A DNA stretch of 64,000 nucleotides from Thermus oshimai DSM 12092. Lineage in GTDB: Bacteria > Deinococcota > Deinococci > Deinococcales > Thermaceae. This document shows, piece after piece, positions 1,899 through 31,954 of the stretch (the first letter of the stretch is position 1; every line of letters begins with the position of its first letter). The stretch lies in the NCBI RefSeq assembly GCF_000373145.1, contig NZ_KB890620.1, positions 62,001-126,000 of the forward strand, given 5' to 3'. Made by a program: the position numbers and the translations under genes. A model generated the notes under the pieces. The model was given only the letters and a program-made list of their open reading frames with translations. It searched no databases and was not told the origin of the DNA.

Positions 1899-3845
1899 TT
1901 AGGCCTCCTCCTTCAGCTTCTCCACCACCCGCTGGTCCTCGAGGGTGGAGGTGTCCCCCTTGATCTCCTTCTCCCCCGCGGCGATCTGGCGCAGGAGGCG
2001 GCGCATGATCTTGCCCGAGCGGGTCTTGGGCAGGGCGTCGGTGAAGCGGACCTCGTCCGGCCGGGCGATGGGGCCGATGACCTTGGCCACGTGGGCCTTG
2101 AGCTCATCCCGGAGGGCATCGGAAGGGCTGTGCCCTTCCTTGAGGGTCACGAAGGCCACGATGCCCTCCCCCTTCACGGGATCGGGGCGGCCCACCACCG
2201 CGGCCTCGGCCACCGCGGGGTGGGAGACCAGGGCGGACTCGATCTCCATGGTGCCGAGGCGGTGCCCGGCCACGTTCAAGACGTCGTCCACCCGGCCCTG
2301 GATGAGGTAGTAGCCGTCCTTGTCCCGCCGGGCCCCGTCCCCGGTGAAGTACACCCCGGGGTGCTGGCTGAAGTACTGCTGGATGAAGCGGCCCGGGTCC
2401 CCCCAGACCGTGCGGAGCATGCTGGGCCAGGGGCGGGTGATGCAGAGGTGCCCGCCCTCGTCGGGGTTTTCCACCGGGCGGTGCTCGCTGTCCAGGATCT
2501 CCGGCACCACCCCGAAGAAGGGCTTGCCCGCGTGGCCGGGCTTCATGGCGTGGGCCCCGGGGAGGGTGGTGATCATGATCCCCCCGGTCTCCGTCTGCCA
2601 CCAGGTGTCCACGATGGGGCAGCGCCCCTTGCCGATGACGTTGTAGTACCAGAGCCAGGCCTCGGGGTTGATGGGCTCCCCCACCGTGCCGAGAAGCCTT
2701 AGGGTGTCCAGGCGGTGCTTCAGGGGCCAGCCCTCCCCCCAGCGCATGAAGGAGCGGATGGCGGTGGGGGCGGTGTAGAGGATGGTGACCCCGTACTTGT
2801 CCACGATGCGCCAGAAGCGGTCGGGCTCCGGCCAGTTGGGGGCCCCCTCGTACATCACCGTGGTGGCCCCGTTGAGCAGGGGGCCGTAGACCACATAGGA
2901 GTGGCCGGTGATCCAGCCCACGTCCGCGGTGCACCAGTAGACGTCCTCGTCCTTGAGGTCAAAGACCAGCTTGGTGGTGAGGTAGACGTAGGTCATGTAC
3001 CCGCCCAGGGTGTGGAGGACCCCTTTGGGCTTGCCCGTGGAGCCGGAGGTGTAGAGGATGAAGAGGGGCTCCTCGGCCTCCATGGGCTCGGGCTCGCAGC
3101 GGTCCGAGGCCGCCTCCATGAGCTCGTGCCACCAGTGGTCCCGCCCCGGGACCATGGGCACCTCCTCCCCCGTGCGCCGCACCACCACCACGTGCTCCAC
3201 GCTGGGGGTGTCCTTCAGGGCCTCGTCGGCGTTTTGCTTCAAGGGGACGATGCCCCCCCGCCGGTACCCCCCGTCCGCGGTGATGAGGACCTTGGCCTCC
3301 GCGTCCTTGATCCGGTCCGCCAGGGCCCCCGCGGAGAAGCCGCCGAAGACCACGCTGTGCACCGCCCCGATGCGGGTGCAGGCCAGCATGGCGATGGCCG
3401 CCTCGGGGATCATGGGCAGGTAGATGGTGACCCGATCCCCCTTCTTGACCCCCAGGCGCTTCAGGACGTTGGCGAACTTCTGCACCTCCCGCCAGAGGTC
3501 GTGGTAGGTGAGGACCCTTTCCTCCCCCGGCTCCCCTTCCCAGACGATGGCCGCCTTGTTCCTGCGCCAGGTTTCCACGTGGCGGTCTAAGGCGTTGTAG
3601 GAGAGGTTGGTCTTGCCCCCTACGAACCACTTGGGGTGGGGCAGCTCCCCTTCCAGGACCTTCTGCCAGGGGGTGAACCAGTGGAGTTCGGAGGCCACCC
3701 GTCCCCAGAACCCTTCGGGGTCCTGGATGCTTTCCTGGTAAAGCCGCTGGTACTCCTCCTCGCTCTTGATGTGGGCCTTTTGCCGGAAGGCCTCGCTGGG
3801 GTAGAACACCCGCTCTTCCTTCAAGACGCCCTCAATGCGGTCCAT
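1899..3845 (-). CDS. acs: Acetyl-CoA synthetase (AMP-forming)
   Basis: A 648-residue cytosolic ligase that activates acetate to acetyl-AMP and then acetyl-CoA. It has the full ACS set: N-terminal ACAS_N region, P-loop [11 protein letters not shown], the acetate-pocket tryptophan in [10 protein letters not shown], the A8 hinge and CoA-tunnel motif [16 protein letters not shown], and the regulatory lysine of [10 protein letters not shown] at about K612, the usual acetylation target. The start is ATG at 3845, not the longer frame, because an excellent AAAGGAGG lies just upstream. A TTGACC-17-TATCCT promoter precedes it and a hairpin terminator follows. It is divergent from an IclR-ACS fusion gene, which suggests regulation through the shared intergenic region. 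Confidence 0.97.
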
Positions 3846-3867: not shown

Positions 3868-3896
3868 AGGATAGGGAGAAAAGGCCTGGGGGTCAA
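3868..3896 (-). promoter_or_regulatory. acs promoter
   Basis: Reading the minus strand, -35 TTGACC (3896-3891), a 17-bp spacer and -10 TATCCT (3873-3868). The predicted start is near 3861, giving a leader of about 15 nt that contains the AAAGGAGG ribosome-binding site. Confidence 0.8.
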
Positions 3897-3942
3897 GAAA
3901 GAAGGGGTTTTTCACCATGCGCAAAAACCCGGGTTTCTTGAC
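3892..3942. promoter_or_regulatory. Nested inverted repeat between divergent promoters (candidate IclR-type operator)
   Basis: Outer arms GTCAAGAAA (3892-3900) and TTTCTTGAC (3934-3942) are perfect 9-bp complements. Inner arms GGGTTTTT (3905-3912) and AAAAACCC (3923-3930) are perfect 8-bp complements. The centre is near 3917. The outer arms contain the two outward-facing -35 hexamers, so a protein bound here would contact both promoters. It lies upstream of both transcripts and so acts as DNA rather than RNA structure. Caution: the outer arms may partly reflect the -35 consensus itself, because TTTCTTGACC recurs at another promoter (31914-31923). Confidence 0.6.
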
Positions 3943-3967
3943 GGGGGGTCTTGGGAACGGGAAAGAT
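3938..3967 (+). promoter_or_regulatory. Promoter of the IclR-ACS fusion gene
   Basis: -35 TTGACG (3938-3943), an 18-bp spacer and a weak -10 AAAGAT (3962-3967). Only 8 nt separate the -10 from the ATG at 3976, so the transcript would be leaderless or nearly so. Confidence 0.5.
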
Positions 3968-3975
3968 GGGGAAAG

Positions 3976-6504
3976 ATGGCCCGCAAGCGGAGCCTTTCCA
4001 CCGTTCAGGCGGCCCTGCGCCTCCTCGCCTACCTGGCGGAGCACCCCGAAGGGGTGGAGGTGAAGGAGGTGGCCCGCCTTTTGGGCAAAAGCCTCTCCAC
4101 CGCCTACGCCCTGCTTAACAGCCTGGTGGAGGAAGGCTTCGCCGTCAAGACCGAGGGGGGCTACCGCCTGGGGAGCACCAAGCCCGTGCCCCAGCCCTCG
4201 AGCTTCTTGGAAGAGGCCCTGGAGGAGCTTTACCTGCGCACCCGGGAGCGGTGCTACCTGGCCCTCCCCACCCCGGAAGGGATCCGGCTCAAAAGCCGGG
4301 GGCGGCAGGGCCAGCCCCACCCCCTGGGGGAGGCCCTGCCCGAGGAGGCCCACGCCCTGGCCCTGGGCAAGGTCTTCCTGGCCTACGGGGCCCTGCCCAC
4401 GCCCTCCTTGCGCTCCCGGACCCCCTACACCCTCACCGATCCCCTGGCCCTGGAGGAGGAGCTGAAAAGGGTGCGGGAAAGCGGCCTGGCGGTGGAGATG
4501 GAGGAGTACGCCCTGGGGCTTTCCGCCCTGGCGGCCCCCCTCCTCGGGCCTAAAGGGGAGCTCCTCGGGGCGCTAGGGGTGGTGGTGCCGAGCCGCCGCT
4601 TTCCCTTCGCCTTCAGCCGCCTGGCCCGGGCCCTTTCCGAGGTGGCCCGGGTGCCCGCCCACCTCACCCCCCCCGAGCCCCCAAACCTCCCCCCACCCGA
4701 GGAGGGGCCCTTGCGGGTGGAAAAGGTGGAGCCCCCCCGGGCTCTGAAGGAGGGGGCCAACCTCGGGGACTTCCTCGCGGCCTACCGGGCGAGCCTCGAG
4801 GACCCCGAGGGGTTCTGGGGGGGCTTCGCCCGGGGGTTCTACTGGGAAAAGCCCTGGCGGGTGGCCTACGCGCCCGAGGAACGGGCCTGGTTCCAGGGGG
4901 GCCTCACCAACGCCGCCCTGAACGCCCTGGACCGCCACCTGCCGGAAAGGGCCCAGCAGGTGGCCCTCCTCACCCTGGACGGGGAGGGGCACCTCAGCAA
5001 GTGGACCTACCGGGAGCTCACGGAGCTTTCCTCGAGGCTCGCGGGGGTCCTTAAGGCCCTCGGGGTGGGGCCGGGGGACCGGGTGGCGGTCTACCTCCCC
5101 ACTGGGCTGGAGGCCGCCCTCACCCTCCTGGCCTGCGCCCGGATCGGGGCGGTGCACGTGGCCCTGCCCCTCGGCCTTGGCCCCGAGGCCCTACGGGAGC
5201 GCCTTAAGCAGGTGGGGGCCAAGCTCCTGGTGGCCGCGGACGGCTACTACCGCCGGGGGCGGTTCATCCCCCTGACCCAGGGGGTGGAGGAGGCGGCGGA
5301 GGGCCTCCCCATCCTCTGGCATCGCCGGGGCACGAGCGAGTTCCTGGAGCGGGTGAGCGAGGGCAAGCCCCAAGACCCCCTCCCCGTCCCCTCGGACCAC
5401 CCCCTCTTCCTCCTCCACACCTCGGGCTCCACGGGGAAGCCCAAGGGGGTGGTGCACGGCCACGGGGGGTACATGGTGGGGGTGGCCTGGGCCCTGCGCC
5501 ACCTCTTTGACCTGAAGCCGGGGGAGGTCTTCCACAGCACCGCGGACCTCTTCTGGATCGTGGGGCACTCCTTCGGCCTCTACGCCCCCCTCTTCCTGGG
5601 GGGCACGAGCCTCCTCCTGGAGGACCGGCCCGACCACCCAAGCCCCGCGGCCTTCTACGGAAGGATGGCCGCTCTTGGGGTGGACCTCCTCCTCACCTCC
5701 CCCACCCTCCTCCGGGCCCTGAGGCGCCATGGGGAAGCCAGGCCCACGAGGCTAAGGCTCCTGGGAAGCGTGGGGGAGGCCCTGGCCCCCGAGGTCTGGC
5801 GCTGGACCCGGGAGCACCTGGCCTGGCCCCTGGACAACTGGTGGCAGACGGAGCTCGGGGCCCCTGCCCTGGCCACACCCCTCGCCCTCCCCGCCAAGCC
5901 GGGCTTCGTGGGGGTGCCCCTGCCGGGGGTGGAGGCCCGGGTGGTGGGGCCCAAGGGGGAGGTCCTCCCCCCGGGGGAGAAGGGGCACCTGGTCCTTCTC
6001 AGGGCGGGCCCCGCCCAGATGGTGGGCCTCCTCGGGGGGGCCTCCCCCTGGCAGGGGGGGATGTACTGGACGGGGGACCTGGCCGTGATGGACGAGGAGG
6101 GGTACTTCCGCATCCTGGGGCGCACGGACGAGGTCATCAAGGTGGGGGAAGCCCGGCTCGGCACCGCGGAGGTGGAGGCCGCCCTCCTCACCCACCCCCA
6201 GGTGGCCGAGGCCGCGGCCATCGGCGTGCCGGGGGAGGAGGGGGAGGAGATCGCGGCCTTCGTGGTGCCCCGGAGCAAGGAGCTCCCCGAAGAGCTCAAG
6301 CCCCTCCTGGCGGAGAAGCTCAAGGCCCACCTCCTCCGCCACCTGGGGCCTTTGCCCCCGCCCCGCATCTTCTTCGTGGAAACCCTCCCCCGTACCCGGA
6401 GCGGCAAGATCCTGAGGCGGGTCCTGAAAGCGGAGCTTCTTGGCCTGAACCCGGGGGACACCTCGGGCCTGGAGGAGGAGTATGGCGGTGGAAAAACTCC
6501 TTAA
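3976..6504 (+). CDS. IclR-family regulator fused to an acetyl-CoA synthetase-like domain
   Basis: One uninterrupted 842-residue frame. Residues 1-60 form an IclR winged helix (STVQAALRLLAYLAEHPEGV, then VKEVARLLGKSLSTAYALLNSL), and about 70-225 form the IclR effector domain, with GLAVEMEEYALGLSALAAPLLGPKG matching its signature. From about 260 onward it is an ACS: P-loop [11 protein letters not shown] near 480, the acetate-pocket DNWWQTELG, and the A10 lysine of TRSGKILRR at K811. The A8 motif reads KVGEARLGT where Acs has NVAGHRLGT, so the CoA-tunnel Gly is Glu725. I start at ATG 3976 because upstream residues do not look like protein and overlap the acs promoter. No stop or frameshift separates the halves. 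Likely role (inference): a transcription regulator sensing an acyl acid, ATP or acyl-AMP and controlling acs and itself. Confidence 0.9.
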   Translation: MARKRSLSTVQAALRLLAYLAEHPEGVEVKEVARLLGKSLSTAYALLNSLVEEGFAVKTEGGYRLGSTKPVPQPSSFLEEALEELYLRTRERCYLALPTPEGIRLKSRGRQGQPHPLGEALPEEAHALALGKVFLAYGALPTPSLRSRTPYTLTDPLALEEELKRVRESGLAVEMEEYALGLSALAAPLLGPKGELLGALGVVVPSRRFPFAFSRLARALSEVARVPAHLTPPEPPNLPPPEEGPLRVEKVEPPRALKEGANLGDFLAAYRASLEDPEGFWGGFARGFYWEKPWRVAYAPEERAWFQGGLTNAALNALDRHLPERAQQVALLTLDGEGHLSKWTYRELTELSSRLAGVLKALGVGPGDRVAVYLPTGLEAALTLLACARIGAVHVALPLGLGPEALRERLKQVGAKLLVAADGYYRRGRFIPLTQGVEEAAEGLPILWHRRGTSEFLERVSEGKPQDPLPVPSDHPLFLLHTSGSTGKPKGVVHGHGGYMVGVAWALRHLFDLKPGEVFHSTADLFWIVGHSFGLYAPLFLGGTSLLLEDRPDHPSPAAFYGRMAALGVDLLLTSPTLLRALRRHGEARPTRLRLLGSVGEALAPEVWRWTREHLAWPLDNWWQTELGAPALATPLALPAKPGFVGVPLPGVEARVVGPKGEVLPPGEKGHLVLLRAGPAQMVGLLGGASPWQGGMYWTGDLAVMDEEGYFRILGRTDEVIKVGEARLGTAEVEAALLTHPQVAEAAAIGVPGEEGEEIAAFVVPRSKELPEELKPLLAEKLKAHLLRHLGPLPPPRIFFVETLPRTRSGKILRRVLKAELLGLNPGDTSGLEEEYGGGKTP

Positions 6505-8365
6505 GGAAGCGGAACGGCTTTGGGCACCGGAGGCCTTGCGCCAGGGGGCGAACCTCAAGGACTTCCAAGGGGAGTACCGGCGGAGCCTCGAGGACCCCGA
6601 GGGGTTCTGGGGGGCGTGGGCCAGGCGCTTCCACTGGGAGGTCCCCTTCGCGAGGGTGCTGGAGTGGAACCTCCCCGAGCACCGCTGGTTCTTGGGGGGC
6701 CGGACCAACGCGGTCTACAACGCCCTGGAAAGGAACGTGGAGCGGGGCCTACGGAACAAGGTGGCCCTCCTCTACCTCTCCGAGGACGGGCGGGAGGAAA
6801 AGCTCACCTACGGGGAGCTTCTGGACCGGGTGCGCCGCCTGGCCACGGGGCTAAGGGCGCTCGGGGTGGGGCCGGGGGACCGGGTGGTGGTCTACATGCC
6901 CCTCACCCTGGAGGGGGTCCTGACCATGCTGGCCACCGCCTACCTGGGGGCCATCCACAGCGTGGTCTACGCGGGGCTTGGGGTGGGGGCCTTGAGGGAG
7001 CGCATCCTGGACGCGGGGGCCAAGGTCCTCATCGCCGGGGACGTGGGGTACCGGCGGGGCAAGGTGGTGGACCTGCGCTCCATCGCCGAGGAGGCCATCC
7101 GGGACCTCCCCCTCAAGGTGGTCTGGTTCCAGCGCCTGGGGAAGGCGGAGCTTCCCCCCGGCCACCACGATTTTGAGGAGCTCCTCTGGGGCCACCCCCC
7201 CGAGGCCCGGGCGGAGATGGTGGACGCGGAACACCCCCTCTTCATCCTCTACACCTCGGGCTCCACGGGCAAGCCCAAGGGGGTGGTACACGTGCACGGG
7301 GGGTACATGGTGGGCACCACCTACCACCTGCGCACCTTCTTTGACGTGAAGGACGACGACCTCTTCTGGGCCACCAGCGACATCGGCTGGATCGTGGGCC
7401 ACTCCTACATCGTCTACGCCCCCCTCCTGGAAGGGATCACGAGCCTCCTCAGGGAAGGGGCGCCCGACCATCCGGACCCCGGGGCCTTCTGGAAGGTGGT
7501 GGAGCGCCACCGGGTGAACGTGATGTTCACCGCCCCCACCGCGGTGCGCATGTTCATGAAGTTCGGCCCCGAGTGGCCCAAAAAGTACGACCTCTCCTCC
7601 CTGCGCCTCATCGCCGTGGCCGGGGAGCCCCTGAACCCCGAGGCCCTCCGCTGGGCCTACGCCCACCTGGCGGACGGGGGGCGGCGGGGCTTCGTGGCCG
7701 ACAACTGGTGGCAGACGGAGCTCGGGGGGCCCACCCTGGGCACCCCCCTCACCCTCCCCGCCAAGCCGGGCTTCGCCGGGGTGGCCCTCCCCGGGGTGGA
7801 GGCGGGGGTGGTGGACGAGGAGGGGCGGCCCGTGCCCCCGGGGAAGGGGGGGCTTTTGGTGCTCAAAAGGCCCTTCCCCCACATGATGCGCACCGTCTGG
7901 GGGAACCACGAGCGCTACCTCCAGTACTGGCGGGAGGTCCCGGGCGGGGTCTACGCCGCCGGGGACGTGGCCAGCCAGGACGAGGAGGGGTACTATAGCG
8001 TCCTCGGGCGGGCGGACGACGTCCTGAACGTGGCCGGGCACCGCATCGGCACCGCGGACGTGGAAAGCGCCCTGGTTTCCCATCCTGCGGTGGCCGAAGC
8101 CGCGGTCATCGGCGTGCCCGACCCCCTGAAGGGGGAGGCCATCAAGGCCTTCGTGGTCCTCCGCTCTGGACACACCCCTTCGGAGGAGCTAAAAGAAAGC
8201 CTCGTCGCCCACGTGCGCCGGGAGCTCGGCCCCATCGCCACCCCTAGCGAGGTGGTCTTCCTGGACAAGCTCCCCAAGACCCGTTCGGGGAAGATCCTGA
8301 GGCGCCTCCTGAAGGCCCAGGAGCTTGGGAAGGACCCTGGGGACCTCTCCACCCTCGAGGAGTAA
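6482..8365 (+). CDS. Acyl-CoA synthetase, ACS family paralogue
   Basis: A 627-residue AMP-forming acyl-CoA synthetase with intact P-loop [11 protein letters not shown], tryptophan DNWWQTELGG, A8 motif [16 protein letters not shown] and lysine motif KTRSGKILRR, so full adenylation and thioesterification is expected on acetate or another short acid. The ATG lies 23 nt inside the end of the IclR-ACS gene, preceded by GGAGGAG, which indicates translational coupling. Its N-terminal ACS region is shorter than in Acs and is most like the ACS half of the upstream fusion (both share GANL.DF and SLEDPEGFWG), suggesting the two arose by local duplication. The substrate cannot be decided from sequence. 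Confidence 0.92.
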   Translation: MAVEKLLKEAERLWAPEALRQGANLKDFQGEYRRSLEDPEGFWGAWARRFHWEVPFARVLEWNLPEHRWFLGGRTNAVYNALERNVERGLRNKVALLYLSEDGREEKLTYGELLDRVRRLATGLRALGVGPGDRVVVYMPLTLEGVLTMLATAYLGAIHSVVYAGLGVGALRERILDAGAKVLIAGDVGYRRGKVVDLRSIAEEAIRDLPLKVVWFQRLGKAELPPGHHDFEELLWGHPPEARAEMVDAEHPLFILYTSGSTGKPKGVVHVHGGYMVGTTYHLRTFFDVKDDDLFWATSDIGWIVGHSYIVYAPLLEGITSLLREGAPDHPDPGAFWKVVERHRVNVMFTAPTAVRMFMKFGPEWPKKYDLSSLRLIAVAGEPLNPEALRWAYAHLADGGRRGFVADNWWQTELGGPTLGTPLTLPAKPGFAGVALPGVEAGVVDEEGRPVPPGKGGLLVLKRPFPHMMRTVWGNHERYLQYWREVPGGVYAAGDVASQDEEGYYSVLGRADDVLNVAGHRIGTADVESALVSHPAVAEAAVIGVPDPLKGEAIKAFVVLRSGHTPSEELKESLVAHVRRELGPIATPSEVVFLDKLPKTRSGKILRRLLKAQELGKDPGDLSTLEE

Positions 8366-31890: not shown

Positions 31891-31919
31891 AGTGTAGGGA
31901 ATTTGCTGGACTAGGTCAA
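31891..31919 (-). promoter_or_regulatory. Promoter of the pectinacetylesterase-like gene
   Basis: Minus strand -35 TTGACC (31919-31914), a 17-bp spacer and -10 TACACT (31896-31891), followed by GGAGGGAGG and the ATG at 31872. The -35 box overlaps the tail of the upstream CBS-gene terminator. Confidence 0.8.
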
Positions 31920-31920
31920 G

Positions 31921-31954
31921 AAAGTACCCCGCCGAAGCCCAGGCTTCGGCGGGG
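31921..31954 (-). terminator. Terminator after the CBS-pair gene
   Basis: Perfect 13-bp stem (arms 31927-31939 and 31942-31954, 2-nt spacing) followed on the minus strand by TACTTT. Confidence 0.8.

Follow-up and report, generated by a model that had tools for sequence, protein, structure and literature searches.

A conserved 19-bp site between the divergent acs and iclR-acs promoters of Thermus as the probable operator of an IclR-acetyl-CoA synthetase fusion protein

The stretch of Thermus oshimai DSM 12092 DNA analyzed here (64,000 nucleotides, referred to as the window) includes a 130-bp gap that separates acs (ATG at 3845, reverse strand) from a divergent gene coding for a fusion of an IclR-type regulator and an acetyl-CoA synthetase-like protein (ATG at 3976, forward strand). 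A 19-bp core within this gap, TTTTTCACCATGCGCAAAA (positions 3908-3926, axis 3917), is conserved in Thermus and recurs before a symporter operon. Comparison of the sequences makes it quite probable that this core is the operator through which the IclR-ACS fusion controls acetate genes at three promoters. The best reading is that a compact three-promoter acetate regulon, with the fusion protein as its candidate regulator, exists across the Thermaceae.

The gene acs (1899-3845, reverse strand), a candidate target, encodes a 648-amino acid acetate--CoA ligase (TIGR02188, 1018.9 bits; cut-off, 724.95). The fusion gene (3976-6504, forward strand; 842 amino acids), a candidate for both regulator and target, starts with an HTH_IclR domain (PF09339, 46.3 bits; cut-off, 22) followed by a shortened IclR_C domain (PF01614, 55.1 bits; cut-off, 24) that covers only profile positions 56-170 of 174. 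Its C-terminal, acetyl-CoA synthetase-like part scores below the AcsA cut-off (TIGR02188, 472.1 bits vs 724.95). A second acetate--CoA ligase-like gene, acs2 (6482-8365, forward strand; PRK00174, 735.1 bits; cut-off, 657), overlaps the fusion gene by 23 bp, and both are probably in one operon. Nearly all Thermaceae carry the fusion gene and the divergent acs, as does a single genome (G058) from a related family. In a scan of the genome collection, among the matches listed, the IclR part was covered only in Thermus and Meiothermus; the other loci matched the synthetase part alone.

Two promoters pointing outward from the gap had been predicted in the first-pass annotation, and both were borne out when the coordinates were read directly. 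The acs promoter consists of a -35 box TTGACC (3891-3896, reverse strand), kept across the Thermus rows, and a -10 box TATCCT (3868-3873, reverse strand), which is the same in most Thermus, separated by 17 bp. The fusion gene promoter has a -35 box TTGACG (3938-3943, forward strand; TTGACA in most Thermus) and, after an 18-bp spacer, the probable -10 box AAAGAT (3962-3967, forward strand). The latter is a poor -10 sequence, assigned by its position and by the GAATAT, CAAGAT or GAAGAT found at about that position in relatives. The ATG at 3976 lies 8 bp past this box and is preceded by no clear Shine-Dalgarno sequence, which is how a leaderless mRNA would look. Leaderless mRNAs are common in this phylum (PMC12340547).

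The phylogenetic footprinting of the gap that had been suggested in the first-pass annotation was carried out with about 45 genomes of Thermus, Meiothermus and relatives (27 Thermus-type rows plus some 20 more, with the gaps brought to one orientation). The core is TTTTTCACCATTTGCCAAA in most Thermus, with a mean pairwise identity of 85%, whereas identity among Thermus species drops to 63% in the G/C runs that flank it and to 46-51% in the promoter spacers. The distance between the -35 boxes is exactly 45 bp in 24 of the 27 Thermus-type rows (46-47 bp in the other three) and in 17 other gaps, that is, in 41 gaps from Thermus, Meiothermus and the related family genome G058. The core midway between both -35 boxes, where an operator had been proposed from one sequence, is conserved across Thermus, Meiothermus and the related family. 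The core is an imperfect palindrome. In Meiothermus it runs in the opposite direction (e.g., TTTGGCAAATGTACGAAA), as expected from a roughly symmetric site. Judged by eye, its TTT/AAA arms, with 12-13 bp between them, are reminiscent of the A/T-armed group 1 IclR class without a full consensus match. In this comparison the core fits closely neither of the two consensuses quoted from PMC8222616, GKTYCRYW3-4RYGRAMC and TGRAACAN1-2TGTTYCA.

When the genome that contains the window was searched with the site pattern, one more close match, TTTTTCGCTATGCGCCAAA, came up immediately ahead of two genes, one for DUF4212 and one for a VC_2705-type sodium/solute symporter. The products match the small DUF4212 subunit (TIGR03647, 111.9 bits; cut-off, 26.05) and the large SSS subunit (TIGR03648, 552 bits; cut-off, 320.75), and the spacing between this site and a TTGACA/TAAGAT promoter equals that between the core and the -35 boxes in the acs/fusion gap. 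This third site, missed in the first-pass annotation, is what makes the system a regulon. The symporter operon usually follows acs2 in relatives; in this genome it is on another contig and the site is retained. Other Thermus have the same site ahead of the operon and Meiothermus has a diverged form. A sequence-only model built from these sites detected exactly three promoter sites in the window's genome at E < 1e-6 (acs, iclR-acs and the symporter operon; the next match had E = 0.45), and mostly three matches per genome in 27 Thermus genomes. Weak Thermus matches outside the cluster (L118-L120) have no clear operator or promoter context and were not counted as sites. The transporter behind the third site, downstream of acs2, varies by species: it is DUF485-ActP in T. 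arciformis and Thermus sp. 2.9, and a divergent DUF4212-SSS symporter in two other genomes (G044 and G047). All four conserve a recognizable core and the TTTTCTTGAC box, and site and spacing remain constant.

In the proposed mechanism, the fusion protein would bind the 19-bp core and, from this single site, control acs leftward and its own gene together with acs2 rightward. The second copy of the core, at the same distance from a single -35 box elsewhere in the genome, would place the symporter operon under its control. In this way, one acetate-type sensor could regulate both the uptake and the activation of short monocarboxylates, the signal presumably being acetate, acetyl-AMP or acetyl-CoA. 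At all three promoters the core is centered about 21 bp ahead of the first -35 base, which puts its center near -57 relative to the predicted starts. Such a constant distance at independent promoters suggests that the bound protein would touch RNA polymerase, in the manner of IclR-type activators, and activation of this kind is slightly favored over repression by covering of the -35 boxes. The strongest competing explanation, a serious one even if we consider it less probable, is that the fusion acts at the same operator as a repressor, perhaps as a tetramer that covers the core and both -35 boxes until it is released by acetate or an acetate-derived product. The near-consensus -35 boxes and the core are separated by 11-12 bp, a distance that a larger complex could span, and the account of the family in PMC8222616 includes IclR proteins that can bind as tetramers and many members that repress. 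On the other hand, none of the three promoters has an element overlapped by the core, the single upstream distance of the core is more typical of an activator, and the far side of the symporter site lacks a second half.

The fusion protein had been named as the obvious regulator because of its location next to the site; phylogenetic profile and regulon content now also point to it as the best candidate for binding. A second site model, made from Meiothermus-type sites, found sites in 16/16 Meiothermus genomes that have the fusion and in 0/2 that lack it, a pattern with a probability of 1/153 by chance if the two losses were independent, which they may not be since they are possibly related. 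In one of these two genomes (G012), two TTGAC boxes remain in the gap, 133 bp apart, and the core is gone. Since these sites also served to train the models, the counts of presence are partly circular, and independent weight was given only to the absences, the specificity within the own genome and the symporter sites. The sites in G003, G004 and G058 were missed by model R2 and recognized by eye. The recognition helix is nearly identical in the Thermus and Meiothermus fusions. Alternatively, the core could be bound by a different regulator, either an IclR paralogue or a global one, with the fusion being only a neighbor and a target. Three IclR_C matches besides the fusion in the window's genome would supply candidates for such a role, but two genomes (G001 and G020) keep the site with the fusion as their sole IclR_C match, and the two Meiothermus genomes without fusion and site (G006 and G012) still have 4 and 7 IclR_C matches, respectively. 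The presence of only three sites per genome also argues against a global regulator. We consider this explanation improbable. The loss of the site together with the fusion, and its retention where the fusion is the sole IclR_C match, indicate that the fusion is the likely binder.

The first-pass annotation described the symmetry of the gap as a nested inverted repeat with perfect 9-bp and 8-bp arms centered near 3917. The arms are perfect as described, but they are not strictly concentric. The outer arms, GTCAAGAAA (3892-3900) and TTTCTTGAC (3934-3942), have their axis at 3917.0, the midpoint of both -35 hexamers, whereas the axis of the inner arms, GGGTTTTT (3905-3912, overlapping the core) and AAAAACCC (3923-3930), is at 3917.5, half a base off that of the core. 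The best palindrome in the 130-bp gap is a partial one, 3892-3942 with its axis at 3917, and its score was reached by 0.13% of 3000 dinucleotide shuffles (p ~0.001). The outer arms are the acs -35 box (on the reverse strand) and the fusion gene -35 box, each with a TTTC extension, and are invariant in the 24 Thermus-type rows with 45-bp spacing. At the symporter site, where there is a single promoter, the arm is found only on the promoter side. Its absence from the promoterless side indicates that the outer arms belong to the promoters, in agreement with the earlier suspicion that they owe part of their symmetry to the -35 boxes, and they were rejected as half-sites of the regulator. The possibility that the symmetry is just that of two back-to-back -35 boxes, with no operator between them, has in its favor this composition of the outer arms and their absence where there is no promoter, but is very hard to sustain with a 19-bp core that is much better conserved than the sequence around it and is found again, equally spaced, ahead of other transporter genes. 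The exact inner arms were also rejected as a functional unit, being half a base off the axis in a register that is not kept: the footprinting that singled out the core showed no conservation of the 8-bp arms in that register, and the flanking G/C runs, besides their lower identity, are non-complementary in several Thermus. The claim that these arms form the operator was not supported. The TTTC ahead of the -35 box is not specific to the regulon, as the genome has four instances of TTTCTTGAC followed by a TANNNT -10 box, two in the acs/iclR-acs gap. Two other promoter-like sites with a TTTCTTGAC box, a TANNNT -10 box and no match to the operator model are at G000:C19:93891-93923 (about 31891-31923 of the window, reverse strand) and G000:C13:38547-38580.

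The role of the synthetase part of the fusion was considered from its motifs. Of the 28 aligned fusions, 27 have Glu and one has Asp in place of the A8 glycine, which is present in acs and acs2; the adenylation motifs are retained in the fusion. By motif, this position would correspond to Gly459 of MacsMa, a residue described as strictly conserved across the superfamily (PMC10455477). That all aligned fusions lack this glycine and still have the adenylation residues fits an idea that is less likely than not: the synthetase part might be a sensor and no longer a working CoA ligase, binding acetate and ATP and perhaps forming acetyl-AMP. The domain movement known from such enzymes would then switch the attached IclR part on the operator. 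If so, the family would illustrate clearly how an enzyme can become the ligand sensor of a transcription factor, which would sense a metabolite by carrying out half of an enzyme reaction, and it could provide a heat-stable acetate switch for engineering.

There is ample precedent, described in PMC8222616, for operators common to divergent promoters and for IclR regulons of this extent. As in the PcaU, PobR, MhpR and GenR type of regulators treated there, which act on themselves and one or two adjacent operons, the proposed system has HTH_IclR and IclR_C domains, a divergent target, a near-palindromic A/T-armed site and two to three operons. Unlike them, the fusion carries a whole acetyl-CoA synthetase-like part and its IclR_C domain is matched only from profile position 56. 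In the literature searched, which included the main text of PMC8222616, an IclR survey that takes in Deinococcus-Thermus regulators, neither an IclR-acetyl-CoA synthetase regulator nor its site was found, and the literature searched gave no account of acetate control in Thermus.

The proposed co-regulation of an acetyl-CoA synthetase and a sodium/solute symporter is like that of acs and ActP in E. coli, and ActP itself is the transporter in two Thermus genomes. In E. coli, acs responds to CRP and further global factors, in contrast to the dedicated fusion regulator proposed in Thermus. PutA, BirA and NadR are enzyme-regulator fusions or trigger enzymes; like them, the fusion would combine a metabolic enzyme and a DNA-binding domain in one chain and control genes of the same pathway, and it differs in being assembled from other protein families. 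In this reading, the site marks out a small acetate regulon in the Thermaceae, points to the regulator that is likely to act on it and tells exactly which bases to mutate.

Other features were noted at the locus. A methylmalonyl-CoA mutase-like open reading frame (3-1430, assigned by reading) and a gene for a CaMKII_AD-domain protein (1437-1823) are located beside acs, which hints at a link to propionate metabolism. The fusion gene is split into two reading frames in T. parvatiensis RL (G038, C1:800652-803176) and in G045 (C38:4172-6630), by a frameshift or a sequencing error.
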